This document shows, piece by piece, positions 10,926-30,586 of a stretch of DNA of 64,000 bases (its first letter is position 1; the number at the start of each line of letters is the position of its first letter). Source of the DNA: Burkholderia sp. WP9 (GTDB lineage: Bacteria; Pseudomonadota; Gammaproteobacteria; Burkholderiales; Burkholderiaceae). Under the pieces are notes generated by a model that was not told the origin of the DNA, searched no databases, and saw only the letters and a program-made list of their open reading frames with translations. A program made the position numbers and the translations under genes. The stretch is taken from the NCBI RefSeq assembly GCF_900104795.1, contig NZ_FNTG01000001.1, positions 4,697,245 through 4,761,244 on the forward strand, read 5' to 3'.

Positions 10926-12002
10926 ATCAGAATCGAGTGCCAGGCGCAGTTGGTGGTGAAGGGCCCGGATGGCCGCGAGGCAAGCCTGTCGGACGTCGTG
11001 CCGTTGCTCGCGCTGGTGGATGAGTCCGGCAGCATCGCGCAGGCGGCGACGCTTAAGGGTTTGTCCTACCGTCATGCGTGGGGTTTGCTGCGCAGCATCG
11101 AGGAGCGTTTGGGCGGTCCGCTGATCGCCAAGGAGCGAGGCCGCGGCTCGGTGCTATCCGAACTCGGGCAAGCCGTATTGCGTGCGCAGCGTCTGTGCGG
11201 CGAAAGGCTCGATGGCAACATGCAGGCGCTTGCCAGCGAAGTGGCGAGCGATCTGAACCGCTGGCTCGCGCCGCCCGCCGACGACGTGCGCATCTTCGCG
11301 TCGCATGGTTATGCCGTGGCCGCACTCGTCACGGCGCTGGTCGCGAACGATCTTCCGGTCGACATCAAGTATCGCGACAGCGCGGATGCGGTGAGCGCGC
11401 TTGCGCGCGGCGAATGCGATCTGGCTGGCTTTCATGTGCCGCGCGGTGAGTTTCGCGCGGCATGCGCCGATGCGTACCGGCGCTGGCTCGATCCGCAGCG
11501 TCACGTGCTCGTGCATCTCACGCGACGCAAACAGGGGCTCTTTCTGAGCAAGGGCAATCCGCGCGGAATCACGGGCCTGGGCGATCTGGCGCGCGACGAC
11601 ATTCGCTTCGTCAACCGGCAGCCCGGCTCCGGCACGCGCATGTTGCTGGATCTCGCACTACGCAACGTCGGGGTGGATCCGGATCGGGTGAATGGTTATG
11701 CGTCGGCCGAACTCACGCATTCGGCGATTGCGGCGTTCGTTGCGAGCGGCATGGCGGATGTGGGCTTTGGTGTGGAGCCCGCAGCGCATCACTTCGGCCT
11801 CGACTTCATCCCGGTCGTCGACGAAGACTATTACTTTGCCTGCGACCGCGCGCGCCTCGAGCGTGCGCCGCTTGCGACCGTGATCGGTCTGCTGCGCGGC
11901 AGCGCGTTTCGTCATAGCGTCGATCAGCTCGAAGGCTATGACCCGCAAGACTGCGGCAGGGTGGTGGAACTGGAAGAGGGTCTCGGCGAAGCCGTGGCGT
12001 AA
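10923..12002 (+). CDS. ModE-type HTH regulator with periplasmic-binding-protein-like sensor domain
   Basis: A 359-residue regulator divergent from the formate dehydrogenase operon. The N-terminal winged helix resembles ModE (LLALVDESGSIAQAATLKGL then SYRHAWGLLRSIEERLGGPL). From about residue 120 there is a PBP-like domain of the type found in molybdopterin-linked regulators (RFVNRQPGSGTRMLLDLAL, then MADVGFGVEPAAHHFGLDF). By position it probably controls fdsGBAD, the role given to FdsR in Cupriavidus. The ligand could be molybdate, a molybdopterin-related signal or formate; the sequence does not decide. ATG 10923 lies inside a GCATATATG box. Confidence 0.82.
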   Translation: MIRIECQAQLVVKGPDGREASLSDVVPLLALVDESGSIAQAATLKGLSYRHAWGLLRSIEERLGGPLIAKERGRGSVLSELGQAVLRAQRLCGERLDGNMQALASEVASDLNRWLAPPADDVRIFASHGYAVAALVTALVANDLPVDIKYRDSADAVSALARGECDLAGFHVPRGEFRAACADAYRRWLDPQRHVLVHLTRRKQGLFLSKGNPRGITGLGDLARDDIRFVNRQPGSGTRMLLDLALRNVGVDPDRVNGYASAELTHSAIAAFVASGMADVGFGVEPAAHHFGLDFIPVVDEDYYFACDRARLERAPLATVIGLLRGSAFRHSVDQLEGYDPQDCGRVVELEEGLGEAVA

Positions 12003-12110
12003 GCCGCCGTAAACATCGGGCTGTGTTCGGCGCTGCGTATGGCGTCCGTTTGGGATACTCTTTAAGCTTCCGCTTCCGCCTTAACCGCGCGTTATGTCGC
12101 GCCGATCTCT

Positions 12111-12377
12111 ATGAACGTTATTTTTCACGCATGTGCTGCCGTGGCAACGGCTGGTGTGCTGCTCGCCACCGCTTCGGTTGCTGTTGCGCAGAATTCGCCG
12201 GGTGTTCCAGGCGGTATCCTGCAAGACCAGTTTCGTCTTGCCGAGCATCCGCAAATGCCGTTTGCCGCGTCGGCTCCCTCGGACAAATATCAGAGCAGTA
12301 AAAAATCGGCGATGCGCAAGCGCGGCGATATGGGTGATCCGAATGGCTGCAATCTGCAGTGTCCCAAAGACGAATAA
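12111..12377 (+). CDS. Small exported protein of unknown function
   Basis: An 88-residue product with a clear signal peptide (hydrophobic stretch about residues 8-23, cleavage after SVAVAQ). The mature peptide is about 60 residues, Lys/Ser-rich (SDKYQSSKKSAMRKRGD), ending with two cysteines in GCNLQCPKDE that could form one disulfide. I do not recognise the family. There is no clear Shine-Dalgarno. A GC hairpin (about 12402-12425, GCCGG/CCGGC) follows the stop. The neighbours are a regulator on the same strand and a convergent exported protein, so it is probably monocistronic. Confidence 0.6.
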   Translation: MNVIFHACAAVATAGVLLATASVAVAQNSPGVPGGILQDQFRLAEHPQMPFAASAPSDKYQSSKKSAMRKRGDMGDPNGCNLQCPKDE

Positions 12378-12511
12378 GCGGATACGCGAGTCCGTTGGTT
12401 GTGCAACGCCGGCGTTCTGCCGGCGTCTTTCGCTGGGTCTCCAGGTTCAGGTTTAGCCCGGCGTTGCGGTTGCCGTTGCCGTTGCCTTTGCCTTCACCCT
12501 GTGGCGGATGC

Positions 12512-12871
12512 TCAGGGTTTGGCCGTGTGCCACATGTCCTTGAAGCCGTCTCCCTTCATATCTCCCGCCTGCTTGTCCGCCGCGAAGCGATAGAGCGGGT
12601 GCCCTTTGTACGCCCATTGGTGTTTGCCGTCGGCGGCGGCAATTAGCGTCCACTCGCCGGACGGTTTGTCCGACGCGCTGGCCGTGGCTGCCGGCCAATT
12701 GTTCAGGCAGCCGCCAGTGCAGGTGCTCACGCCGGGCGTGGTGTCTTTGTCGAAGGTGTAGAGCGTCATGCCGTCCGCCGTGACGAAACGCCCGTCGACG
12801 ACTTTTGGCACTTCGGCGAAAGCGCTTTGTTGCAGTGCGAGGAGGGCGAGGCAGAAAAGGGTTTTGCGCAT
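12512..12871 (-). CDS. Secreted repeat protein of the COG4315 (YxxxD) family
   Basis: A 119-residue exported protein with a signal peptide cleaved near SAFA. The mature part carries the family hallmarks: a repeated aromatic-acidic motif (MTLYTFDKDTTPG and HPLYRFAADKQAGD), a conserved CTGGCLNNWPA with two cysteines, and a terminal WHTAKP. The family is widespread in proteobacterial periplasms; its function is not established. The DNA just after the stop holds a GTTGCC-rich stretch (about 12464-12494) with no clear role. Confidence 0.82.
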   Translation of the reverse strand: MRKTLFCLALLALQQSAFAEVPKVVDGRFVTADGMTLYTFDKDTTPGVSTCTGGCLNNWPAATASASDKPSGEWTLIAAADGKHQWAYKGHPLYRFAADKQAGDMKGDGFKDMWHTAKP

Positions 12872-13040
12872 GATGTCGGCTCCTGATCTTGGTGTTGGTT
12901 TCGCGCGAAACGCGGCGTGCGCGCGCGTGAGGAATAAACGATCGAGCGGATGCGTTTATTCCAAACGTTTCTTCGCATGGGGAGCGGGAGCGGCAAGGGG
13001 TGGCGAACCAGTCGAGCAGGACGGACGCGGCGGGCAACAA

Positions 13041-13074
13041 AAAACCCGCAAGCAGCAGGCCGCTTACGGGTTTT
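13041..13074 (-). terminator. Leftward intrinsic terminator, probably the original ssrA terminator
   Basis: AAAACCCGCAAGC (13041-13053) pairs with GCTTACGGGTTTT (13062-13074). The helix is unbroken only in the minus-strand RNA, where the single mismatch becomes a U-G wobble, and a U-rich tract follows on that strand. No leftward gene lies to its right until the mobile element, which suggests it served ssrA before the element was inserted. Confidence 0.6.
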
Positions 13075-13109
13075 CGGTGAGACTTGAATGTACTGCCTGA
13101 AACGTGTTC

Positions 13110-13133
13110 TGGTTGCGGCGGCGGCAACCGAAT
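13110..13133. other. Imperfect copy of the tmRNA 3' end (candidate attachment site remnant)
   Basis: Bases 13110-13133 match 19 of 24 positions of the tmRNA 3' end at 22541-22564, in the same orientation. The segment is also a small hairpin (GGTTGC/GCAACC). It may mark the left junction of the element, but five mismatches are more than a recent crossover would leave. Confidence 0.35.
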
Positions 13134-13186
13134 TTCACCCGCTATGCCATGTCTGGTAAGGATTCTGCAGTTTAACTAGTGTTGGA

Positions 13187-13205
13187 TACCACCGAAAATA
13201 CCACC
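13187..13205 (+). repeat. Left integrase arm-type sites
   Basis: TACCACC occurs twice in direct orientation (13187-13193 and 13199-13205), 12 bases apart. The 17-mer spanning them recurs exactly at 22410-22426 beside the integrase gene. Spacing near one helical turn and presence at both ends fit arm-binding sites of a P4-type integrase. Confidence 0.6.
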
Positions 13206-13370
13206 AAAAATGGTGTGCTACCCCATTTTTTTGCCAACGTGTTACGGCGCGTTCCAGAGTGTTCCGGCTGTGCTGAAGCCCTAGCTGCCGGCCGACAGGT
13301 GAAATCGGGCTGACTCACCGCCTGTGGATAACCATCACCGGAGACGGCTAATCCGCAGGGTCATTAAATA

Positions 13371-13470
13371 CCCTCACCCTACATTTGAGGATACCCCTCA
13401 CCTCAAAAGTGGGGAAACCCTCCCCCCAGAAACGAGGCATAGAGATTACATAAATAAAAAAACATAGATG
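13371..13470. repeat. Iteron-like repeats beside an AT-rich stretch (candidate origin)
   Basis: A 26-base segment (13371-13396, CCCTCACC...GAGGATACCC) matches 23 of 26 bases, in inverted orientation, to 15038-15063 inside the initiator-like gene. A second, shorter CCCCTCACCTCA unit follows at 13394-13405. Immediately to the right is an A/T-rich run (about 13440-13470, with ATAAATAAAAAAACATAG), the layout of an initiator-bound origin with an unwinding region. Operator function for the same protein is the alternative. Confidence 0.45.
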
Positions 13471-13477
13471 AGGTAAC

Positions 13478-13521
13478 AGATAGGCGCAGCTACGCTGCTT
13501 CGTCGGCTTCGCCGCCTATCT
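13478..13521. other. Folded DNA/RNA element: outer stem with two inner hairpins
   Basis: AGATAGGCG (13478-13486) pairs perfectly with CGCCTATCT (13513-13521). Inside are two perfect small hairpins, CAGC-TAC-GCTG (13487-13497) and CGGC-TTC-GCCG (13504-13514), the second competing with the outer stem for two bases. The role is unknown; it lies between the iteron-like repeats and alpA. Confidence 0.5.
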
Positions 13522-13740
13522 TCCTTCCCCAAAATTTCTAGAAATCAGCGATCAGGAAAAGCGCTGGCACACGTCGACATCGACATCGGAGAGGCTGGCG
13601 GCTTTCCTTCCCTGATAGCCTGCCTATTTGTTAGGCGCAAACGTCGCGCGGTGCACTTCGCCATCGCTCATACTTCCAACTGTTCCAGCGAGTTGTGCGA
13701 ATTGGTTGCACGCGCTGGCCTTTACTGGAGAAAGGGAAGT

Positions 13741-13950
13741 ATGACCACCAAGATTCTGCGCCGCCGCGAAGTACAGCAAATCATCGGCCTTTCGTGCAGC
13801 TTCATTTACGCGTCAATGAACCGGGGCACATTCCCGGCCCCCGTTCGCTTGGGGCCTAAATCGGTGGGCTGGCGCAAAGAAGACGTTGATGCATGGCTGG
13901 CGGCGCGCGAGACGTGCCAGTACATGGGTACGAAGGCGGCAGTGCAGTGA
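13741..13950 (+). CDS. alpA: AlpA-family helix-turn-helix regulator
   Basis: A 69-residue MerR-like HTH protein of the AlpA/phage excisionase type (MTTKILRRREVQQIIGLS, then FPAPVRLGPKSVGWRKEDVD). AlpA proteins activate integrase/excision or late genes in P4-like and PICI elements. The ATG at 13741 follows an AGAAAGGGAAG purine tract; a longer frame from 13651 has no comparable signal. It is the first gene of the rightward cluster. Its TGA overlaps GTG 13947 of the following frame. Confidence 0.88.
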   Translation: MTTKILRRREVQQIIGLSCSFIYASMNRGTFPAPVRLGPKSVGWRKEDVDAWLAARETCQYMGTKAAVQ

Positions 13951-13985
13951 TCGGCCCGGCAATGGCGGCGCGTGCAAAAAATGTG

Positions 13986-14015
13986 TTGATGACTAGCCGC
14001 CAGCGCCCGTATACT
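13986..14015 (+). promoter_or_regulatory. Promoter of the antisense-RNA / immunity operon
   Basis: TTGATG (13986-13991), an 18-base spacer and TATACT (14010-14015) form a good sigma70-like promoter. The predicted start, about 14022, coincides with the first base of a perfect 7-bp hairpin (TCAGCCG/CGGCTGA, 14022-14041). This is the position expected for the P4 PLE-type promoter. Confidence 0.6.
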
Positions 14016-14060
14016 TTCCACTCAGCCGAAACAACGGCTGACGAGATTGGCGTCTCGATC

Positions 14061-14100
14061 AACGTAGGCGGACAAGCCGCCAGCAATGCGGCTATTTTTT
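14061..14100 (+). terminator. Target box A with mutually exclusive antiterminator and terminator hairpins
   Basis: Box A, AACGTAGGC (14061-14069), runs into GGCGG (14067-14071), which can pair with CCGCC (14077-14081). The overlapping AGCCGC (14075-14080) can instead pair with GCGGCT (14088-14093), followed by TATTTTTT: an intrinsic terminator. Both stems need 14077-14080, so only one can form. Pairing of box A by the antisense RNA would block the first hairpin and favour termination. Confidence 0.6.
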
Positions 14101-14130
14101 CGTCCGTCGCGCCTTTGCACGTCTTCTATG

Positions 14131-14195
14131 GGCGGGCCTTGGCGGGGGAGCCTTCGGGCTCGCCGGTGCCTACGTTCCGGTACGCCAACCCCGTC
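14131..14195 (+). ncRNA. C4/CI-type antisense immunity RNA (candidate)
   Basis: Predicted three-stem RNA. The outer stem is TTGGCG (14139-14144) with CGCCAA (14183-14188). It encloses a UUCG tetraloop hairpin (GAGCC-TTCG-GGCTC, 14148-14161) and a CCGG/CCGG hairpin (14163-14180). The loop of the second is TGCCTACGTT, which displays box B (GCCTACGTT, 14168-14176). Box B is complementary over nine bases to box A (14061-14069) and over eight to box C (14244-14251). This A-B-C layout and junction fold match P4 CI / P1 C4 antisense RNAs, which are processed from the leader and silence the operon in trans. Exact ends are not determinable. Confidence 0.65.
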
Positions 14196-14243
14196 ATGCG
14201 CCCGCTCACCCCGATTGGCGTCGGAAAGCGGGCTTCCACTATC

Positions 14244-14254
14244 AACGTAGGAGG
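14244..14254 (+). promoter_or_regulatory. Target box C overlapping a strong Shine-Dalgarno
   Basis: AACGTAGG (14244-14251, complement of box B) overlaps AGGAGG (14249-14254), which lies seven bases before ATG 14262. Pairing with the antisense RNA would hide this ribosome binding site. Confidence 0.6.
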
Positions 14255-14261
14255 CCGCTAT

Positions 14262-14444
14262 ATGCGCCCTGTATCCGCTCGCACTGAGCAAACCCTTTCC
14301 CCTACTGAGCTGGCAAACCGCGCCTTGCGCGCCGCTGCGCTCGCCCCTACGGTCTTCGACGCGCTGGACATTTGCGCCGATGCGCTTCAAGCGCTCGCCG
14401 CGCTGGCCGTAGTCGTTCCGATGGAGGGTGCGCGCCATGTTTAA
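14262..14444 (+). CDS. Small antisense-controlled protein in the immunity operon (Icd/Ash-like position)
   Basis: A 60-residue mainly helical peptide (MRPVSARTEQTLSPTELANR...). The ATG at 14262 has a canonical AGGAGG seven bases upstream, overlapping box C. The same frame is open back to GTG 13947, which overlaps the alpA stop. That 165-residue reading contains a motif (FYGRALAG...NPVMRPLT) resembling the Phage_ASH / Icd-like family often annotated at such loci, but it reads through the terminator and structured RNA, so the shorter start is preferred. By analogy with P1 icd and P4 genes under CI RNA, its expression would be toxic or derepressing when immunity is lifted; this is inference. Confidence 0.5.
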   Translation: MRPVSARTEQTLSPTELANRALRAAALAPTVFDALDICADALQALAALAVVVPMEGARHV

Positions 14445-14694
14445 ACGCAATGAGATCGCACTGAGCGCCGACGATGTTGCGGCAATGCTCGACCATGCGG
14501 CTGAGAGTTTCGGAAAGCTGGCGGCCCTGAATGCCGCTATTGCCGAGCTGGCTGCGCAGCCCAAATTAGCCCGCGACCTCGCGCGCACGGCACATGAGCT
14601 GGCGGAGGGGCTGGCGGAGGGCTTTGGCGACTTCAGGCGCGAATACGACGCCGCGCATGCCGCCAGCAGTGAGCAAGGGGCGGCAGCGGTATGA
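14437..14694 (+). CDS. Small acidic helical protein, function unknown
   Basis: An 85-residue product starting MFKRNEIALSADDVAAMLDH. Rich in Ala/Glu/Leu and predicted all-helical, possibly a short coiled coil (AAESFGKLAALNAAIAELAA). No family recognised. The start overlaps the preceding stop by eight bases and its own stop overlaps the next start (ATGA, 14691-14694), so it is translated within the same operon as the initiator-like gene. Confidence 0.65.
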   Translation: MFKRNEIALSADDVAAMLDHAAESFGKLAALNAAIAELAAQPKLARDLARTAHELAEGLAEGFGDFRREYDAAHAASSEQGAAAV

Positions 14695-15440
14695 CGGACA
14701 AGAAAGAAACCAAGGGGACATGGCTCACCCCGGCGCTTATGGGTGAGATTGAGGCACGGCGTGCAAGTCACATCGAAGTTGCGTTTCTGGCAGACGTTCT
14801 CGCCCTTCAAACGAAGGAGCGCGGCTGCTTTCGGCTAAACAAGGCATTTGGTGATCGGCACGGCGTTAGCACCAAGCGCGCGAGCGCCATCATTAGCGAT
14901 CTGGCGGCGCGTGGATATATCGTGGTTGAGACGATCCGAAACGCTGCCGGGCAGGTAGAGGAACGTCAGATCTGGCTGGGGCCGAAATTCCCGTTGGATG
15001 GATCTGAACGTACCGCAGCCGGAGAGACTACCCGCAAGGGTATCCTCAAAAGTGAGGTGAGGGGCGCGCCGACAGTCGAAAGCGTCGGGAAAGACCATGC
15101 GCCCGCGGTCGACCAGACCGCAGAAAAATGTGGCTTGCATGAAGGAGGCGAGCAGCCGCAGGCGTCGACACAGGTGCCGCCGCAGCGCAAAGCCGAGCTG
15201 GCGCGCGTCACGAAGTCGACGGCATCGCCGCTCGCAGATCCCGCCGCCGCCTTTCACGCTGCTATGGCTGGCCGCGCCGTCGACGAGCCGATAGCGGTTG
15301 ATCCGCCGTCGCCAGTGCGCGCAGAAGATGAAGATTTGCCTTTTGGCGACGATCCGCTTGACGATTACACCAAGGCCCAGATCGCGTATCACTCAATGAA
15401 CCGGGCAGCGCAATCGGCGCGATGGAGTGCCCATGGCTGA
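14691..15440 (+). CDS. Winged-helix protein, probable replication initiator (O-like)
   Basis: A 249-residue protein. Residues 10-95 form a winged-helix domain (VAFLADVLALQTKERGCFRL, NKAFGDRHGVSTKRASAIIS, then DLAARGYIVVETIRNAAG), like phage replication initiators. The remainder is a polar, Pro/Ala/Glu-rich linker and acidic tail (EDEDLPFGDDPLDD), a plausible partner-binding arm. An iteron-like 26-base repeat shared with the left control region lies inside this gene (15038-15063), as the lambda origin lies inside gene O. The next gene resembles a helicase-loader protein. Initiator function is inferred; a regulator is the alternative. Confidence 0.6.
   Translation: MTDKKETKGTWLTPALMGEIEARRASHIEVAFLADVLALQTKERGCFRLNKAFGDRHGVSTKRASAIISDLAARGYIVVETIRNAAGQVEERQIWLGPKFPLDGSERTAAGETTRKGILKSEVRGAPTVESVGKDHAPAVDQTAEKCGLHEGGEQPQASTQVPPQRKAELARVTKSTASPLADPAAAFHAAMAGRAVDEPIAVDPPSPVRAEDEDLPFGDDPLDDYTKAQIAYHSMNRAAQSARWSAHG
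15038..15063 (-). repeat. Internal copy of the iteron-like repeat
   Basis: In reverse orientation this segment matches 23 of 26 bases of 13371-13396. It also contains a local inverted repeat, CCTCA-AAAG-TGAGG (15044-15057), a likely binding site for a dimeric protein. Confidence 0.6.
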
Positions 15441-15927
15441 GAACAAATTCACTCCGCAGTCAGTCGGGCAATTCGTTTTTGGCGAGCTGCGTGCGATGTA
15501 TGGCGCGGCAGCGCATCGCCGCTTCGAAGTCGGTGTGACGAACCAAGCTGGCGAGGATCTGGGAGTGTTGGAGGCGATGGCGGTGTGGGGGCGGTGGCTG
15601 ATGCGCCCTGACGTGACAAAGAATGTCGTGCGCGACGCCCTGCGCAAGTGCGTCGACGTGAATCCGAAGTGGGCACCGACGCTGCCGGAATTCATGGCGC
15701 TGGTGCTGGCAGAGATCCGAAAACGGGCGGCGCGGCTGGAGCGTGAAGCGGCTGCGTGCTTCGAAGAGCGGCAGGAAGGTACGCCGGAAGCGCGTCAGGC
15801 TGAATTCGACGCCATGCGGGCGATCCTGAAAGCGGCGCAGGTTCCGAAGCGTCGACCGGGCAGGCCGATAAAGGCGCAGCCATCCCAATCTAGCCTGCTG
15901 GCGGGCTTCGACGAGTCGACTAGGTAG
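15433..15927 (+). CDS. Phage replication protein P-like (helicase loader candidate)
   Basis: A 164-residue protein with the layout of lambda P-type proteins: an N-terminal helical region with FGELRAMYGAAAHRRFEVG, a central W-containing segment (LEAMAVWGRWLMRPDVTKNV), and the PxxPTLPEF motif as KWAPTLPEFMALVLAEIRKR. The C-terminus is basic (PKRRPGRPIK). The ATG at 15433 overlaps the preceding stop (TGA 15438-15440) and follows GGAG at 15424. With the upstream winged-helix gene it would form an O/P-like replication pair. The sequence match is by eye and modest. Confidence 0.5.
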   Translation: MAENKFTPQSVGQFVFGELRAMYGAAAHRRFEVGVTNQAGEDLGVLEAMAVWGRWLMRPDVTKNVVRDALRKCVDVNPKWAPTLPEFMALVLAEIRKRAARLEREAAACFEERQEGTPEARQAEFDAMRAILKAAQVPKRRPGRPIKAQPSQSSLLAGFDESTR

Positions 15928-16077
15928 CGGCATAGGAAGGATTTAGGCAGGACCGCCACAAGTCTTTTATAGGGTCGATCCCTTAGAAAGGCAATCATAA
16001 GGATTTAAGGCATACACGAAAGCAGGCTTCGAACAGAGGGGGCGACGCCGCTGCGCGCGGCGAGGCGGTACGGCGGT

Positions 16078-16218
16078 GTGGCTGGGCGCAGTTTGCAGAG
16101 GGGGAAAGCCGCTATCGACGTTCTGATCGACCGCGGCTCGATTGTGGGCGTCGACCAGGTGCGCGACGGACACATCGTGACCATCTATCGAATCAACCAG
16201 ACTACACAGGGCGAGTAA
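16078..16218 (+). CDS. Possible small ORF, 46 residues
   Basis: GTG 16078 begins a 46-residue frame (MAGRSLQRGKAAIDVLIDRG..., ending NQTTQGE). Its stop overlaps the next start (TAATG, 16216-16220), typical of coupled phage genes, and the second half has protein-like composition. No family is recognised and the start is uncertain. It may be the tail of a truncated larger gene. The sequence from 15928 to 16077 shows nothing coding that I can support. Confidence 0.35.
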   Translation: MAGRSLQRGKAAIDVLIDRGSIVGVDQVRDGHIVTIYRINQTTQGE

Positions 16219-16409
16219 TGCAAGAAATCGAACGACAAGAGGCAGTTACCCCATCGACCATCACTGGCGGCGGCGTGCATTTTTCAGCGGCTGCAATGCG
16301 CGCGCTGGTGCGCTACGCAGGCCGGGCAGGCGTTGCCGAATCGGCGGCATGGCTGGCGCATCGCTGGCGGTGCTGGATCACGCAGGGAGCCGTGATGGTG
16401 AGCCGGTAA
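16218..16409 (+). CDS. Small ORF, 63 residues, function unknown
   Basis: Starts MQEIERQEAVTPSTITGGGV with a TAATG overlap to the preceding small ORF. The first 44 residues look coding; the last 19 (WLAHRWRCWITQGAVMVSR) are Trp/Arg-rich and less convincing. The overlapping frame from 16349 looks better there, so a frameshift or an overlapping gene pair is likely. Confidence 0.4.
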   Translation: MQEIERQEAVTPSTITGGGVHFSAAAMRALVRYAGRAGVAESAAWLAHRWRCWITQGAVMVSR

Positions 16410-16516
16410 GCGTGGAGGCTGTGGCGCGAGCTGTGGCCGCTGTAGAGGGTGGCAATCACGAACCCGCGGCGAAGGTGAGCGCGAATCTGATGGAACTGAT
16501 TGCAGAGGCGGAGTAA
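16349..16516 (+). CDS. Small overlapping ORF, 55 residues
   Basis: ATG 16349 opens a 55-residue frame (MAGASLAVLDHAGSRDGEPV..., ending ANLMELIAEAE) of normal helical composition. It overlaps the end of the 63-residue ORF and ends in TAATG, where the next ORF starts. Either a separate small gene or the continuation of 16218 after a frameshift. Confidence 0.4.
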   Translation: MAGASLAVLDHAGSRDGEPVSVEAVARAVAAVEGGNHEPAAKVSANLMELIAEAE

Positions 16517-17012
16517 TGCAAGCGATTAATCAAGCAGAGAGCGCGCAATCGGGCGCATCACGCGACGCCGCGGCGATCAATCAGACGATCCGCCGTGTGG
16601 TCGGCGATCACACGGGGCTGGTGCATGAGTTCACGCGCCCGGCTGGCGTGACATGGGTGGAGTTTTCCGATAAGGCCGCAGGCTGGCGAAGTCGGCGGCG
16701 CGGTTCGCCATGCTGCTGCATATGGTCGAAGGTGGCGATGGTCCGGTAACGGATAAGGCTATGGATGCCGCTATATCTGCCTTCGAGGCGCGCGCAAGGC
16801 AGACAGGCCGCGCGCCTGCCGCCGTGGCACCGGGGGCCGCTCAGGCGCTTTTCACGCGCATCACGGCTGGCGAGCTGGAGGAAGGATTCTCTGCAATGGA
16901 CGTGGTGGAGCGCAAATGGGCTGGTCTGCGTGATAGCGAGCTGGTGCGCGAGGCGCTGGGGGGAACTGGTGGCTTGCGGCTGGCTAGTTGCTGGTCGGGC
17001 GAAGGGATATGA
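16516..17012 (+). pseudogene. Frameshifted remnant of a replication-type (DUF3987-like) protein
   Basis: Two frames complement each other. Frame 1 from ATG 16516 is protein-like to about 16680 (GVTWVEFSDKAAG), then turns into Arg/Cys-rich noise. Frame 2, open just after a TAA at about 16675, reads LAKSAARFAMLLHMVEG and continues to 17012. Joined, VTWVEFSDKA...AKSAARFAMLLHMVEG resembles the C-terminus of DUF3987/YfjI primase-helicase proteins (WxEF...K...AARxAxLLHxxEG). A frameshift near 16680 and loss of the N-terminal part would explain this. The family match is tentative. Confidence 0.45.
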
Positions 17013-17417
17013 CAAGCTCCGCTATCGACTCAGTCGGGCAGCGGCTGGCGAATAGGCGCTGCTGGCGGTTTGACCGATGAAAAGCGGCGGCGCGCAATGG
17101 CTGTGCGGCGCACGGCTAACACTTGAGAAAGCGCTGGAAGAAAAGTGCCAAAAAACGCGGGGAAATACGCATACCCGCGAGTAAAGGCGGCCAGCGCGGC
17201 GGGTAGAACGTCGCGACCCTCTGTTAGCCATCCCGTAGAATGCCGCCAGAGGTTGAGAAACAACGAAGCGTTCCGGTTAATTCCAGTTAGTTCAACTAAT
17301 TGAGTTTCATCGAAGCGCAATGCTTCCCATCTGGCGCAGAAGCTGGCTGGGTGTTCTCAAGTGGTGATCGCATGGTGCTGTCGCCGCATCGTTTAAACGT
17401 ACTAGGGGTAATGGCAT
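17013..17417. other. Intergenic region before the capsid gene
   Basis: About 400 bases with no supported gene. It contains a 13-base palindrome TTAGTTCAACTAA (17287-17299), extendable to 17 bases with one mismatch (CAG...TTG), which could be a phage-type operator or promoter element for the capsid gene. Nothing else stands out. Confidence 0.4.
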
Positions 17418-18746
17418 ATGGCTCGCAATTCCATCGCAGCATCGGCAGTTCGTAACGCAGCAGCCGCACAGGCAGCATTCGCCAAGACCGGCAAAATCCA
17501 GCGCGGCATGTTCGCTGTGCGCGCGGAAGCTGGCTTGGGCGAAATCAAGTCGATGATTCAGGGCGTGAATACGTCTTTCACCGAGTTCAAGGCGAAGAAC
17601 AATGAACGCGTCGACGGCATCGCCGCTGACGTGGAAGCCATCATGGCCGGTATGGACAAGATGGCGGTTCAGATGGCTGGCGGCGTGGGCAATACCAAGG
17701 CAATGGGCGCGGACACTGACGAAGCGCAGCCCGTCCACGCTTCGACCGGCCTCCGTGGCTCGCAAATCGGCGCGTTCTATCGCCAACGCGCTCAAGCATC
17801 GGCTGGCGGCGCGTTCGGCCCGCGCGCCAATTTCGGTATTGCGGACTTCATTCGCGGCGCTGCTGGTATGTCGGGCGTGAGCGAGGGCGTGCGCGCGGCT
17901 CTGTCGGAAGGCGTGGGCACGGACGGCGGCTACGCGGTGCCGGACGCGGTAATGCCCACGATTCTGGATGCGATGGTAAGCGCATCGGCGGTGCTGGCCG
18001 CTGGCGCGAGCATCCTGCCGCTTGGCGCTGCAAAGAGCGTGACCATTCCGGCTGTGGATCAACTGCCGAAACCGGCATGGCGCAACGAGAATGACCCGCT
18101 GGCAACCGGCGGTCCGACTTTCCGCCCCGTGACGGCTACGCCGCGTTCGCTCGCAATCGTGGTGCCGATCAGCCGTGAATTGCTGGCCGATGCCGTGGAT
18201 ATGGACCGCGCCGTGCGCCAAGCGCTCGCGCAAGCGTTCGCCAAGGCATTCGACCGCGCCGCGTTGGTTGGCTCCGGTACGGCTCCCGAGCCGTTGGGCC
18301 TGTACGGCATGACGAACGTACAGAAGATCAAGCAAACCGGCTCCGCGTTCGCGTATGCCGACATGCTGGCCGCGTATCAAGCGCAACTGGACGCGGACGC
18401 ACCCGCGCCTACGTCGATCATCATGGCTCCGCGCACGCTGACCGGCCTTGCTGGTCTGGTCGATACGCTTGGTCAACCGCTCAACGCTCCGGCTCTGCTG
18501 GATGGCGTGGTGCGCCGTCCGTCCACTGGCGTTCCGACCAACCTTGGCGATGGCGCTAACGAGTCGCTGGCGTTTATCGGCAACTTCAACACGGTCCAAT
18601 TCGTGATGCGCGAAAACTTCAATGTTCGCCTGCTGCCGGAGTTACCGGGTTCGAACGGTCAACTTGCGTTCATCGCTCACGCGCGTTTCGACGTGGTGGC
18701 GAACTACCCGCAAGCAATCACGGTGATCGAAGGCGTTACGAGCTAA
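17418..18746 (+). CDS. HK97-fold phage major capsid protein
   Basis: A 442-residue protein of the HK97 major capsid family. Residues 1-115 look like a scaffolding delta-domain (helical; SMIQGVNTSFTEFKAKNNER, VDGIAADVEAIMAGMDKMAV). The capsid core follows (EGVGTDGGYAVPDAVMPTIL), with a P-domain segment (VVPISRELLADAVDMDRAVR) and a C-terminal GNFNTVQFVMRENFNVRLLP ending VVANYPQAITVIEG. The start follows AGGGGTA nine bases upstream. No prohead protease, portal or large terminase gene lies in the element, so capsid maturation and packaging would need a helper phage or unidentified factors. Confidence 0.9.
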   Translation: MARNSIAASAVRNAAAAQAAFAKTGKIQRGMFAVRAEAGLGEIKSMIQGVNTSFTEFKAKNNERVDGIAADVEAIMAGMDKMAVQMAGGVGNTKAMGADTDEAQPVHASTGLRGSQIGAFYRQRAQASAGGAFGPRANFGIADFIRGAAGMSGVSEGVRAALSEGVGTDGGYAVPDAVMPTILDAMVSASAVLAAGASILPLGAAKSVTIPAVDQLPKPAWRNENDPLATGGPTFRPVTATPRSLAIVVPISRELLADAVDMDRAVRQALAQAFAKAFDRAALVGSGTAPEPLGLYGMTNVQKIKQTGSAFAYADMLAAYQAQLDADAPAPTSIIMAPRTLTGLAGLVDTLGQPLNAPALLDGVVRRPSTGVPTNLGDGANESLAFIGNFNTVQFVMRENFNVRLLPELPGSNGQLAFIAHARFDVVANYPQAITVIEGVTS

Positions 18747-19070
18747 CGCATGCCGCCGCCGTGCTGCCGTGTCGGCGATGTGCTGGCCCGGTGGCGCGCT
18801 AGTAAAGCCAGTCCGCGAGTGTTGCGCGGCGTCGCGCTGTGGCGCGTCTCCGTGCGCCCCAGCGGGTTGCCCAAAAAATGGGCAGGGGGGAGTCAAAAGT
18901 TTTTTGGCCTTCGCGCCCGAGACCGACCGATCCCGCACGCGCAGAAAAAAAAGCCGTTTTGAGCGTTTTTTCAAATGGCGAAGCGGCGCGGGCTGGCGCA
19001 ATCCCTGCGCTGGCGCGCGTTTCGGGCATGATTGGCCCGGAATCAAAATCAAATGACAGGAGGATGGTGC
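18747..19070. other. Non-coding interval with homopolymer blocks and a hairpin (candidate packaging site)
   Basis: A perfect inverted repeat TGCCCA-AAAAA-TGGGCA (18868-18884) is followed at once by GGGGGG (18885-18890), then CAAAAGTTTTTTGG (18894-18907), a run of eight A (about 18947) and TTTTTT (about 18970). Frames crossing it are low-complexity. Such stretches just upstream of small terminase-like genes can be cos sites; that is a hypothesis here. Confidence 0.35.
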
Positions 19071-19376
19071 ATGGCCGGAGCGAAAGGCCGCTCAGGCGGC
19101 GCACGGCGCGGGGCCGGGCGGCCACGTAAAGAGCCAATGCTGCCCGAGCCGCTGCCCGATATGGAAGCGCGCGAGCTAGTGCGCGAAATCTCGCTGGGTC
19201 GGATTGACCCTACGGACAAGCAATTGAAGGCCGCGCTGGCGCTGATGGGTGACGACACAAAGCGTGTGTTGGGCGCGGGCAAGAAAGACGCGAAGAATGA
19301 GGCAGCGAAGACCGCCGCATCGAAGTTCGGCGCAGCACCACCGCCGCCACGCATGGTAGTGAACAACGGAAGGTAA
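19071..19376 (+). CDS. Small phage protein, terminase-small-subunit-like N-terminus
   Basis: A 101-residue basic protein starting MAGAKGRSGGARRGAGRPRK, the Gly/Arg-rich start (SGGxRxGAGRxxK) common in phage proteins near or within small terminase subunits. The middle (MEARELVREISLGRIDPTDK) could be helix-turn-helix-like, followed by a basic tail ending PPPPRMVVNNGR. ATG 19071 follows a strong AGGAGG; an upstream ATG at 19032 lacks one. Too short for a full P27-type small terminase, so the assignment is tentative. Confidence 0.5.
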   Translation: MAGAKGRSGGARRGAGRPRKEPMLPEPLPDMEARELVREISLGRIDPTDKQLKAALALMGDDTKRVLGAGKKDAKNEAAKTAASKFGAAPPPPRMVVNNGR

Positions 19377-19377
19377 C

Positions 19378-19842
19378 ATGGCAACTCGAAAGAAGAAGGC
19401 GACGCAGGAAACCCAATCGGGCGACCCGAAAGCGTTTCTACTGGCGGTGACAAACGATACGAGCGCCGAGCTGGCGCACCGCATGGAGGCCGGGAGCATT
19501 CTGCTGGCCGACGACGCCGACGAGGCCGCTGCGACCGGCGGGCGCAGAAGGCTCGTAGAAATGATGAATGACCCGCTGATCGCGCAGGCGCGCCGCGTGG
19601 AGGCCGCAACCCTCGCGATGGCGATTGATGCCGCCGGTGCCAAGCTGACAGGCGATCCGGCCCGCCGCGCCGCGCTGCTGGCGACGATGAACGACACCGG
19701 CGCTCCGCTGGAGAACCGGATCAAGGCCGCGAATCTCCTGCTCGACGACGCGAACCGACCGCGAGCGCTCCAGCTTCTAGCTATGAGACCGCCGCGCAAT
19801 GCGTTGAACCGGCCATTCGAGGCCGACGAGCTTATCGATTAA
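19378..19842 (+). CDS. Three-repeat helical protein of unknown function
   Basis: A 154-residue protein with three related blocks of about 38-41 residues, each carrying L-x4-ND-x6-R-x2-A-x-x-L. The Asn-Asp pairs are at residues 26-27, 64-65 and 105-106 (AVTNDTSAELAHRMEAG, EMMNDPLIAQARRVEAA, ATMNDTGAPLENRIKAA). This looks like a small HEAT/ARM-style solenoid. It begins one base after the stop of the terminase-like gene and ends the capsid operon, followed by a terminator. Function unknown; a packaging or redirecting role is speculation. Confidence 0.65.
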   Translation: MATRKKKATQETQSGDPKAFLLAVTNDTSAELAHRMEAGSILLADDADEAAATGGRRRLVEMMNDPLIAQARRVEAATLAMAIDAAGAKLTGDPARRAALLATMNDTGAPLENRIKAANLLLDDANRPRALQLLAMRPPRNALNRPFEADELID

Positions 19843-20142
19843 GCCGCTGCCGCAAGGTGGCGCGCGCCCGTGCCAGCCGGGAATCCTTCGGGACGTTGCT
19901 GGATGGGGATAAGCACATGAGTGCCCCACATACGGAAAAACCTGTGCAGTCTGCGACTCGGAACCGCCGGATTCTGTTCCGCTGGCCCGCCGAGGGCGCA
20001 GACAGGGCGGGCCGCCGGAGCAATCCGCGCGGCCCGTTTTCATGTGTGCGTGCCCTTGTGTCAGCCATCTTCAGTGATAGGCGGGCCGTTCCTTGAAAAT
20101 GCGACGGCTCGCACGCACCAGAGGGCAATGCGCCGCGCAGTT
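19843..20142. other. Convergent intergenic region without a supported gene
   Basis: Three hundred bases between the rightward capsid operon and the leftward HTH/integrase side. They contain the terminator at 20008-20040. GATGGGGATAAG (19900-19911) is repeated at 20176-20187 within the 3' part of the HTH gene, possibly the remnant of a duplicated gene end. Confidence 0.45.
20008..20040 (+). terminator. Intrinsic terminator of the capsid operon
   Basis: CGGGCCGC (20008-20015) pairs perfectly with GCGGCCCG (20029-20036), followed by TTTT. It ends the rightward transcript of the capsid and accessory genes. Confidence 0.7.
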
Positions 20143-20355
20143 TTAGGCGGGTTGAAGGGCAGCGTCGACTTGCTCGATGGGGATAAGGCCGCACTTGTTG
20201 AGCTTGAACGTCCCGTGCGTGACCATCTTGCTAACCGTCCAGCGGCTCAGTCCCAGCATCTCTGCGGCTTGCTGCATCGTGACTTGTGACGGTCGAGGAC
20301 GGCGCGCGCTGAAAAGCTCGAATGCCTTTATGATTGTTTTCATTTCGTCGTTCAT
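20143..20355 (-). CDS. Excisionase-type helix-turn-helix protein
   Basis: A 70-residue MerR-like HTH of the excisionase/AlpA type (VTMQQAAEMLGLSRWTVSKM, then VTHGTFKLNKCGLIPIEQVD). The minus-strand start ATG 20355 follows GGGGAAGG. It is the third gene on the integrase side, after DUF2971 and int, and may act as recombination directionality factor or as a regulator counterpart to AlpA. Confidence 0.78.
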   Translation of the reverse strand: MNDEMKTIIKAFELFSARRPRPSQVTMQQAAEMLGLSRWTVSKMVTHGTFKLNKCGLIPIEQVDAALQPA

Positions 20356-20400
20356 ATTGCCTTCCCCATCTCTTGCGTTTAAATGGTTTGCCGAGATGTT

Positions 20401-21066
20401 CTACGGCATGAGAGACAGCGACGGCGCATCCCTTCTGCGTACAATCCGAAACGACTGGAATGCTGGCCGAGCGTGAAAGAGATCGATGCTTTTGCTAGTG
20501 TGGCCGATAAGCTTGGCGAGCTGCTCCACGTTCGCAGTACATCGATGGCCTAGTATTACCTCGCGTAGCGTAAAGTGCGGGGCAAAATTCAGAAAATACA
20601 GGCCGCTTTCCGGCTGCCGATCGTTCAGCCCAGCAAAAAAGCGCCACTCGCGTTCGTATGCCCAATCCTTAAACTTCGTCGTTAAAATGGCGCGCATCTG
20701 CGGCTCGTTCAGTAGCTCGCCTCTGCCGATATGCTCCAGCAGACCGTTCAAGCGACGAGGTTCGTATTTGACTTGGTATGCTTCAGCGTCGGTAACATCG
20801 AAGCCGAGGCATACGCCCTTGTGCTTCGCCCCGTAATGCGCCCACATGACAGGGCTGTCCCAAGTTTTGCTGGTGCACAGCATCCCAACAGACTGCGACA
20901 GATGGCCGTGCAGAACCCGGTAGAGGTGCCGTGCGCGCCTCTCGCCTACCCAAGCGCCCATCAGTTCGAAGGGATCGTTGGCTTCAGGAACGGTCGAAAG
21001 TTTTAACCGCTTCTCTGCCAGAATGCGTTCAGCATACTCAAGCTGGGTGAGGTAATAGAGGCGCAT
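20401..21066 (-). CDS. DUF2971 family protein (accessory cargo)
   Basis: A 221-residue protein with the DUF2971 signatures: an N-terminal LYYLTQLEYAERILAEKRLK and VPEANDPFEL, then MWAHYGAKHKGVCLGFD and the ERE-type motif KFKDWAYEREWRFFAG. No signal peptide or membrane segment. The biochemical role of the family is unknown to me; members are often seen in accessory and mobile regions. Base composition is visibly less GC-biased than the host genes around it. It lies between int and an HTH gene, the usual cargo position in satellites, so a role in phage competition is possible but unproven. Confidence 0.82.
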   Translation of the reverse strand: MRLYYLTQLEYAERILAEKRLKLSTVPEANDPFELMGAWVGERRARHLYRVLHGHLSQSVGMLCTSKTWDSPVMWAHYGAKHKGVCLGFDVTDAEAYQVKYEPRRLNGLLEHIGRGELLNEPQMRAILTTKFKDWAYEREWRFFAGLNDRQPESGLYFLNFAPHFTLREVILGHRCTANVEQLAKLIGHTSKSIDLFHARPAFQSFRIVRRRDAPSLSLMP

Positions 21067-21120
21067 TGTCGTTTTGTCGTTGTGATCACAGGAGCTGTTA
21101 CCGCCTGAATTGTGCGAACG

Positions 21121-22377
21121 TTAGCCGCCCTTCGCAACATTGGCGCTGATCGGAATGACCTGCGCCCCCACCTTGAGCTGATCGAGATAGTCCGCCCACT
21201 TCTGCATCATTTCCCTGCGCTGGGGAAGATGAGCGGTTCGGTTGTAGGCGCGCCCGAGCGGGTCTTTCACGGCGTGCGCGAGCTGGGCTTCGACAATTGA
21301 GGCAGGTACGTCCAGAACCTCATCAAGGATCGTCCGAGCCATCGCCCGGAAGCCGTGGCCTGTCATGGTATCCCCATCGTACCCGAGCCGCCGCAGCGCA
21401 CCGTTGACCGTGTTGTCCGACATGGGGCGGTCTTTCGTGCGGACGCTGGGGAACACGAGCCGTCCGGTGCCAGTAAGTGCGTGTAGCTCGCGCAGGATGC
21501 TGATGGCCTGAGACGACAGCGGAACGATGTGCGCACCGCCCGCCGCTTTGCCTTGCTTAGTGCGCTTCATCCGACCACTTGGAATCTCCCATGTGCCGCC
21601 GTCTAGGTCGAATTCGGTCCATTCAGCGGCGCGCAGTTCGCCGGGTCGCTGGAATAGTAGGGGGGCGAGTTTGAGCGCGCACGCTACTGGAAAGGTGCCC
21701 GTGTACCCATCCATCGCACGTAGCAGTTCTGCAACCTGTTTTGGATCGGTGATGGCTGCCATGTGTTCGACTTGCACGGGCGGCAATGCGCCCCGGAGGT
21801 CGGCGGTAATGTCGCGCTGGGCGCGCCCGGTCGCCACGGCATAGCGGCATGCCTGCCCGATGTTGGCATGGAGCCGGTGAGCAGTTTCGAGTGCGCCGCG
21901 CTTCTCGACCCGGCGCAGCACATCGAGCACATCGGGCGGAGCGAGGTCGGCCATAGGCTTGCCACCGATCCACGGGAAGGCGTCTACCTCCAAGCGGCGC
22001 AAGATGCGCTCGCCGTGGCCTTCCGACCATGTAGGCGCGTACTTGGCGTGCCACTCACGGGCGATGGCCTCGAACGAATTTTCAGCGTTGAGGCGCTGGG
22101 TGCGTTTCTCCGCCTTCTTCGATTCGCCCGGATCGATGCCCGCCGCCAGCTTCTCGCGGGCATCATCGCGCTTCTTGCGAGCTGCTGCCAGCGGCACGTC
22201 CGGGTAGACGCCGAGCGCCAGCGTCTTGTCTTTCCCGTTGAACCGGTAGTTCATGCGCCAGTACTTCGCTCCTGACTGGACGATCTGGAGGTACATACGC
22301 CCGCCGTCCGACAAGCGGTTGCCGGTGCCGTCCGGGTTATAGCGGGCGTTCCTGATCTGGGTATCGGTGAGCGGCAT
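21121..22377 (-). CDS. int: P4-type tyrosine recombinase (integrase)
   Basis: A 418-residue integrase with an N-terminal arm-binding (DUF4102-type) domain (MPLTDTQIRNARYNPDGTGN and YRFNGKDKTLALGVYPDVPL), a SAM-like core-binding domain around residues 110-190, and the catalytic domain. Catalytic residues seen: Arg in LLFQRPGELRAAEW, His-x-x-Arg in GHGFRAMARTIL, a His in LAHAVKDPLG and the Tyr nucleophile in RAYNRTAHLPQRREMM. Upstream in-frame Met 22425 would run through the arm-type sites; 22377 gives the family start. It lies beside the ssrA 3' end, a classic target for this family. Confidence 0.95.
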   Translation of the reverse strand: MPLTDTQIRNARYNPDGTGNRLSDGGRMYLQIVQSGAKYWRMNYRFNGKDKTLALGVYPDVPLAAARKKRDDAREKLAAGIDPGESKKAEKRTQRLNAENSFEAIAREWHAKYAPTWSEGHGERILRRLEVDAFPWIGGKPMADLAPPDVLDVLRRVEKRGALETAHRLHANIGQACRYAVATGRAQRDITADLRGALPPVQVEHMAAITDPKQVAELLRAMDGYTGTFPVACALKLAPLLFQRPGELRAAEWTEFDLDGGTWEIPSGRMKRTKQGKAAGGAHIVPLSSQAISILRELHALTGTGRLVFPSVRTKDRPMSDNTVNGALRRLGYDGDTMTGHGFRAMARTILDEVLDVPASIVEAQLAHAVKDPLGRAYNRTAHLPQRREMMQKWADYLDQLKVGAQVIPISANVAKGG

Positions 22378-22393
22378 GGTGGTATCGGGTGTC

Positions 22394-22436
22394 GGTGGTA
22401 TAGCGAATGCCACCGAAAATACCACCCGATACCACC
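22394..22436. repeat. Right integrase arm-type sites
   Basis: TACCACC-type heptamers occur at 22394-22400 (inverted), 22408-22414 (TGCCACC), 22420-22426 and 22430-22436. The 17-mer at 22410-22426 repeats the left-end sequence at 13189-13205. The cluster lies directly upstream of int, so occupancy could also repress int. Confidence 0.6.
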
Positions 22437-29503: not shown

Positions 29504-30586
29504 ATGCGCGTCTTTAATTTCTCCGCCGGCCCTGCGGCCATGCCCGAAGAAGTGCTGCGTCAAGCCGCCGACGAAATGCTCGATTGGCAAGGCAGCGGCA
29601 TGAGCGTGATGGAAATGAGCCATCGCGGGAAAGAGTTCATGTCGATCCACGAGGAAGCGCTCGTCGATCTGCGCGACCTGCTCGAGGTGCCGGCGAGCCA
29701 TCGCATTCTGTTCCTGCAAGGCGGCGGTCTCGGCGAGAACGCAATCGTGCCGATGAATCTGATGGGCGCGAAGCCGCGCGCGGATTTCGTCGTGACGGGT
29801 TCCTGGTCGCAGAAGTCGTTCAAGGAAGCGCAGAAGTACGGCACCGTGCATCTGGCGGCGAGCGGCCAGACGGCCGAGGGTTTTACCCGCGCGCCCGCGC
29901 GCTCCGAATGGCAACTGTCGGACGACCCGGCTTACGTGCATCTATGCACGAACGAGACGATCCACGGCGTCGAGACGTTCGAGATTCCCGATCTCGGCGA
30001 TATTCCGCTGGTGGCGGACGCCTCGTCGCATATCCTGTCGCGTCCCATGGACATCGCCAAATACGGCGTGCTGTTTGGCGGCGCGCAGAAGAACATCGGT
30101 ATGGCCGGCGTGACGGTGGTGGTCGTGCGCGAAGACATGCTGGATCGTGCGCTGCCGATCTGCCCGTCGGCGTTCGAATGGAAGACCGTCGCCGAGAACA
30201 ATTCGATGTACAACACACCGCCCACTTACGCGATCTACATCGCCGGGCTGGTGTTCAAGTGGTTGAAGAAGCAGGGCGGCCTTGCCGCGATGGAAGCACG
30301 TAATCTCGAAAAGTCGAAGCTGCTGTACGACGCGATCGACTCGAGCAGCTTCTATCTGAACAAGGTCGAACACGGCTCGCGCTCGCGGATGAACGTCCCG
30401 TTCTTCCTCGCCGACGAGTCCCGCAACGAAGATTTCCTGGCCGGCGCGAAAGCGCGGGGAATGGTGCAGCTAAAGGGCCACAAGTCCGTCGGCGGCATGC
30501 GGGCGTCGATTTATAACGCCGTCCCGCTCGAGGGCGTCAAAGCGCTTGTCGAATACATGAAGGAATTCGAACAGCGCAGCGCCTGA
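29504..30586 (+). CDS. serC: Phosphoserine aminotransferase
   Basis: A 360-residue class V PLP aminotransferase converting 3-phosphohydroxypyruvate to phosphoserine, and serving pyridoxine synthesis. Start [20 protein letters not shown] at ATG 29504. The PLP lysine is in [13 protein letters not shown]. The substrate-site HRGKEF near the N-terminus and the C-terminal [20 protein letters not shown] are characteristic. First gene of the serC-pheA-hisC-tyrA-aroA-cmk-rpsA-ihfB block. Confidence 0.97.

Follow-up and report, generated by a model that had tools for sequence, protein, structure and literature searches.

A C4-type antisense RNA with target boxes in the leader and at a start site of a mobile element from a Paraburkholderia-type genome

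Introduction

Does a single antisense RNA control a mobile element at two levels, by ending transcription in its own leader and by covering a start site further downstream? This question is raised by a locus in a 64,000-nucleotide window, the whole stretch of DNA that was analysed and to which all positions refer. An earlier, sequence-only reading of the window had noticed a three-stem RNA whose loop, called box B, is complementary to an upstream box A and a downstream box C, and had proposed an immunity circuit like those of satellite P4 (CI) and phage P1 (C4). The locus is well supported as encoding a C4-type antisense RNA that belongs to a mobile element, the genome being of Paraburkholderia type, and the pairing of its loop with both targets is, as judged from sequence comparison, specific to the locus. 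The part of the proposal that concerns termination is predicted more weakly.

The C4 RNA and its two sets of boxes

A check against the Rfam C4 covariance model, proposed with the earlier reading, gave a full-length match (RF01695, model positions 1-87) at 14124-14213 of the forward strand, with 67.7 bits against a gathering score of 45. The three-stem RNA displaying box B is therefore the C4 fold, the paired part of which spans 14129-14208 in the Rfam alignment, with a GG motif at the 5' end of the outer stem. For the C4 family, the expected product of RNase P processing is an RNA of about 77 nt. The small RNA first envisaged at about 14131-14195 is too short to hold the paired fold.

A search for exact, non-overlapping Watson-Crick complements of at least 8 nt within 13986-14264 returned boxes A, B and C alone, placed as originally described and with complementarities of 9 and 8 nt. 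These correspond to the b1, b' and b2 boxes of the C4 family. The inventory was incomplete, since a second set had been missed: the a' segment of C4 and its two exact complements, a1, which precedes b1, and a2, which sits between C4 and b2. The elements of the RNA and its targets, all on the forward strand, are the following.

14042-14057, forward strand: hairpin CGAGA/TCTCG, the loop of which holds most of a1 (sequence and fold)
14047-14053, forward strand: target box a1 (TTGGCGT), exact complement of a'
14061-14069, forward strand: target box b1, formerly box A, AACGTAGGC, a locus-specific 9-nt complement of b'
14124-14213, forward strand: C4 antisense RNA (RF01695)
14168-14176, forward strand: b' loop of C4, formerly box B, GCCTACGTT, assigned by complementarity and cross-locus comparison
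14182-14188, forward strand: a' segment of C4 (ACGCCAA), assigned by sequence and cross-locus counts of the a boxes
14215-14221, forward strand: target box a2 (TTGGCGT), exact complement of a'
14244-14251, forward strand: target box b2, formerly box C, AACGTAGG, an 8-nt complement of b' overlapping the Shine-Dalgarno sequence
14249-14254, forward strand: Shine-Dalgarno sequence AGGAGG
14262-14444, forward strand: 60-aa open reading frame (ORF), placed like icd in P1 and like a short ORF that follows C4 in P4, with 14 homologues at E<=1e-3

The AGGAGG overlapped by b2 ends 7 nt before the ATG at 14262, exactly as had been read from the sequence for box C. Read in this way, the layout of the locus is a1b1, C4 with a' and b', then a2b2, as annotated in phage P1. 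Three traits of the C4 family were found together here, namely a model score above the gathering score, a' and b' with a1b1 upstream, and a2b2 downstream with b2 on a ribosome-binding site.

Covariation of loops and targets across the genus

Of 144 genomes of the genus, among them that of the window, 101 gave a match when searched with RF01695. The sample analysed comprised 138 C4 loci, nine from this genome and the 129 best-scoring among the matches listed; one listed match near a contig end was left out. The 138 loci include kin and are not independent, their distinct loops numbering 97, and their loops were delimited by pattern, imperfectly so in L025, L036 and L016. The last of these, having no readable heptamer, was left out of the a-box counts, which therefore refer to 137 loci.

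Covariation in homologues was evident for both targets. The locus's own a1 was present in 129 of 137 loci, as against 64 of 15,390 mismatched pairings (leaders with a different a'), and its own a2 in 59 of 137, as against none of the 15,390. For the loop, each locus's own b' was ranked against other loops with G-U pairs allowed, and a rank within the top 5% was taken as specific. For the own leader, this rank was reached by the own loop in 54 of 59 a2-bearing loci and in 69 of the 79 others, the fit falling outside the top 5% in 15 of 138. For the start-site region the corresponding counts were 59/59 and 2/79, the classes being defined by a2 and hence independently of the loop. Among the other loops that differ from the window's, none (0%) pairs with its leader as well as its own does, and 1.5% fit its start-site region as well; a relative with a loop identical to the window's (L109) was excluded from this cross-loop comparison. 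The predicted pairing of the window's loop with leader and start site is thus locus-specific, and where a genome has several C4 copies, the variable loops follow the cis targets of their own locus. Covariation of both box sets supports, as anatomy, the claim that one RNA has a termination target and a translation target.

Two classes of C4 locus

Are both targets always present? A run of at least four T before C4 was found in all 59 loci with a2 and in 5/78 of those without it. The loci without a2 (79 of 138, for example L004, L005 and L092) keep the leader boxes, and most also have no T-run; in those examined by eye, a hairpin lacking a T-run was seen. The box a1 is kept in 76 of 78 of them, and from this count together with 129/137 overall, a1b1 alone seems to be under selection. 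No clear downstream target was detected within 700 bases of the loci without a2: the a box occurred in 2/78 own against 127/4,446 cross comparisons, and loop matches of at least 8 nt in about 14% of own against 13% of cross comparisons (at least 9 nt, 6% against 3%). The window belongs to the first class, with a2 and a T-run, and so, by the reading of their sequences, do P1 and P4.

The genome of the window carries nine C4 RNAs (L001-L008 and L016), and in eight of the nine the best fit to the leader is that of the locus's own loop. The exception is L006, whose leader is fitted slightly better by the loop of L008 than by its own, and cross-immunity between these two loci is predicted from the loop fit. 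Among the loci of this genome without a2, the next ORF has 150-154 residues in 5/7 cases, alike by eye, and a short frame follows in the other two. One copy of the 150-154-residue ORF was scanned and gave no Pfam match, nor did four ORFs following C4 in relatives.

A co-resident C4 locus, L009, was observed on a contig (C6) of 9,893 bases. This contig has an exact 448-base terminal repeat and is therefore probably a circle of 9.4 kb, a phage-plasmid or satellite; it carries genes of the ParA, RepL, AlpA, Ogr/Delta, portal and resolvase families.

The two architectures and the nine co-resident C4 RNAs are by-products of this analysis and possibly new. No description of two C4 architectures turned up in the searches made of open-licence papers. 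It is tempting to regard C4 immunity in the genus as a large specificity code with two architectures, a reading to which we give a little less than an even chance. The first class would combine a leader target, a T-rich terminator and a start-site target. The second, larger in the sample, would have a leader target, mostly without a T-rich terminator, and no downstream target, so that its action would have to take another route, through the leader alone. Matched loops would let many members share a cell, and terminated a1b1 leaders could sponge C4.

Predicted promoter, leader and terminator

How might the leader respond to C4? The following features, upstream of the RNA, bear on this question.

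13986-14015, forward strand: sigma-70-like promoter TTGATG-18-TATACT, 9/12, with 0.1 expected in shuffles
14022-14098, forward strand: isrK-like leader RNA (RF01394), 49.6 bits, E 1e-9
14067-14081, forward strand: possible antiterminator, GGCGG (14067-14071) with CCGCC (14077-14081), overlapping b1, from sequence and a partition-function test
14075-14100, forward strand: intrinsic terminator-like site, a stem at 14075-14093 followed by ATTTTTT, with 0.5 expected by chance

Among the 59 loci with a2, 37 have a best promoter-like pair whose -10 element ends 101-110 bases ahead of C4. The leader lies just under the isrK gathering score of 50 bits, and no match to the c4-a1b1 motif (RF03163) was found in the window at E<=0.5.

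The termination switch was examined by partition-function folding with the boxes kept unpaired, on leaders cut at the T-run and so not folded cotranscriptionally. The sample comprised 42 of the 59 loci with a2; both leader boxes were present in 44, two of which had no stem. With a1 and b1 both blocked, the terminator stem had a mean probability of 0.86 instead of 0.57, as compared with 0.64 for random blocks of equal size, in a set where the stem seems misassigned in L064 and L081 (probability 0). Blocking b1 alone gave 0.86 and a1 alone 0.55, so that b1 explains the whole gain. The gain exceeded 0.1 in 19 of the 42 loci and was 0.1 or less in 23, and 19% of random placements, which could overlap b1, matched the real boxes. 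In the window, blocking the boxes brought the probability from 0.76 in the free leader to 0.96, a rise that was equalled by 4 of 20 random placements. These values indicate that the antiterminator is a minority fold in the window. The arm pairing GGCGG with CCGCC, which box A had been said to overlap, can be read in the sequence, yet folding predicts another structure to dominate; release of the terminator by pairing at box A is modestly favoured in direction over the 42 loci and only weakly predicted at this locus.

The likeness of the leader to isrK suggests another role for it, in which the terminated leader, running from 14022 to about 14100 with a1 and b1, would act in trans, pairing with C4 or opening the readthrough mRNA, so that its net effect would be to lift repression and not merely to signal an early end of transcription. 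Short IsrK RNA of Gifsy-1 activates translation of a readthrough mRNA, according to a passage of PMC4825925, where inactivation of the downstream CI-like RNA STnc1160 through binding by IsrK is also discussed as a possibility. In the window, however, the isrK match is below the gathering score, and according to PMC4825925 IsrK was not offset by constitutive STnc1160, with which the arrest of growth was more pronounced. An activator or sponge of this kind is conceivable here, if on the unlikely side.

The weakness of the in silico switch at this locus would also suit control by translation alone, as described for P1, with a2b2 at the start site as the sole functional target and with a1b1 and the terminator as by-products or as means of tuning the C4 supply. 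The P1 record, too, labels a1 and b1 as 'putative' and gives the role 'repression of icd ant translation' for a2 and b2. The retention of a1 across the sampled loci, those lacking a2 included, argues against this reading, which we judge unlikely.

Downstream ORFs and the surrounding element

It had been expected that the stretch would be annotated as an Icd/Ash-like protein. Among the homologues of the 60-aa ORF, every named one is called a hypothetical or uncharacterized protein, and wherever a genus is given it is Paraburkholderia or Burkholderia. No family match to the ORF was found in Pfam, PHROG or NCBIfam, and no near relative among phage records. An Icd/Ash identity was rejected both for this ORF and for an overlapping 183-codon frame, neither having a Pfam, PHROGs or NCBIfam match. 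Likewise, no Icd/Ant family of these three collections was detected in the ORFs at 14262-14444, 14437-14694, 14691-15440, 15427-15927 and 16218-16409.

In several relatives (for example L017, L053 and L057), the first ORFs after b2 were seen by eye to begin alike, with M-R-x-x-x-ARPEQ, and then to diverge, as if coding parts had been exchanged behind a control region that stays constant. A PE[QF] motif occurs early in 21/52 of the ORFs after b2, their starts having been picked mechanically and some of them wrongly, and no conclusion is drawn from this count.

Two further features belong to the element that carries the C4 locus.

13741-13950, forward strand: AlpA-family regulator gene just upstream of the locus (PF05930, E 3.1e-16)
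19867-19951, forward strand: Proteo-phage-1 RNA (RF03044), with a score of 45.7 bits where the cut-off is 42

The element also contains a major capsid protein gene (17418-18746), terminase small-subunit-like ORFs and a DUF2971 ORF, and the region 17418-22425 resembles a capsid-bearing satellite. The integrase gene adjoins a tmRNA gene. Within 11000-21000, the 3' end of the tmRNA was found to share no exact repeat of at least 12 bases with the element, and near-matches of 14/16 bases at 13117 and about 8055 were not convincing as an attachment site. Among phage records, one near relative of 13600-16600 was found, Bordetella phage vB_BaM-IFTN8 (OM293957.1). A match of 146 bases with 70.7% identity places its positions 29874-30011 opposite window positions 14087-14232, the C4 stretch; nothing is annotated there, and the likeness suggests that this phage, too, probably encodes a C4 RNA.

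Proposed mechanism and significance

Considering the fold, the boxes and their covariation together, the locus is very probably a cis-encoded immunity module of the C4/CI type. The promoter at 13986-14015 would drive the leader, C4 and the operon of the element. C4 would be cut out of the operon transcript by RNase P, as a passage of PMC5320573 describes for P1/P7. Its a' and b' segments would then pair jointly with a1b1 in the nascent leader, removing an arm of the antiterminator and favouring the terminator at 14075-14100. They would also pair with a2b2, b2 covering the Shine-Dalgarno sequence and blocking translation of the 60-aa ORF; transcription of the rest of the operon would probably be blocked as a result, by polarity. 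This would keep the resident element silent and shut off any newcomer that has identical boxes.

What does such a module mean for the genus? It provides a candidate immunity determinant for a Paraburkholderia-type mobile element. With a co-resident set of C4 RNAs, incompatibility between elements would be predictable from about nine bases and is testable. For Acinetobacter, many C4 copies in one genome are described in part of PMC5320573, which raises the question whether such copies are host-co-opted or still immunity devices, and the tracking of targets by loops bears on this question. That the multi-copy loops drifted because they now regulate host genes, one of two roles that PMC5320573 proposes for the numerous C4-like RNAs in Acinetobacter baumannii, is highly improbable here, for the variable loops find their matching boxes within the same locus, as self-immunity predicts.

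Comparison with known systems

How closely does the immunity module resemble those of P1 and P4? Translational repression leading to Rho-dependent termination is reportedly the mode of action of P1 C4, a finding attributed to Biere et al. and the year 1992. P1 matches the C4 model with 68.8 bits, and its record annotates a1, b1, C4, a2 and b2. As in the window, a1b1 lies upstream of C4 and a2b2 downstream, with b2 just before icd, to which the 60-aa ORF of the window corresponds by position, and a T-rich hairpin was seen by eye between b1 and C4. Unlike P1 immI (c4-icd-ant), the window has no Icd/Ant family among the ORFs tested after C4, and its element differs from P1/P7 in carrying AlpA, capsid and integrase genes. 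A passage of PMC5320573 describes for the C4 RNA of P1/P7 that b' occludes ribosome-binding sites and that a' gives specificity, in addition to RNase P processing.

In the P4 CI system, a CI-dependent intrinsic terminator, t1, lies between the promoter and cI. Its dependence on CI RNA and seqA is said to have been established by Briani et al. in 2000. The window has a hairpin and T-run between the predicted promoter and C4, where folding supports such a switch weakly. P4 CI scores 74.9 bits with the C4 model, and the P4 leader 60.8 bits with the isrK model. By eye, P4 has a box before a T-rich hairpin, then CI, then a box on the Shine-Dalgarno sequence of a short ORF. A regulator/excisionase gene lies upstream, as the AlpA gene does in the window. 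The P4 boxes (seqA, seqB and seqC) differ in sequence from those of the window, and therefore no cross-immunity between the two would be expected. Pairing of CI with seqA upstream and seqC downstream leads to termination, as described in part of PMC4825925.

The IsrK RNA of Gifsy-1 is likened to the window by its leader and differs in its role, reported in a portion of PMC4825925 as activation in trans. The c4-a1b1 motif, listed in part of Weinberg 2010 (PMC2864571) and described in Rfam by 'a1, b1 targets of C4 antisense RNA', is below its cut-off even in P4 (44.1 against 46.7 bits).

Overall, the logic first proposed for the locus does match that of P4 CI and P1 C4, on the evidence of the P1 annotation and of the P4 sequence examined by eye, and so closely that most of the novelty is removed. 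The dual-target logic was already known, because the P1 and P4 C4/CI systems have it; the joint targeting of termination and translation, as far as sequence comparison supports it, is an anatomy rather than a new logic, and the novelty is limited accordingly. Next to P1 C4 and P4 CI, the locus adds one more member to the C4 family.
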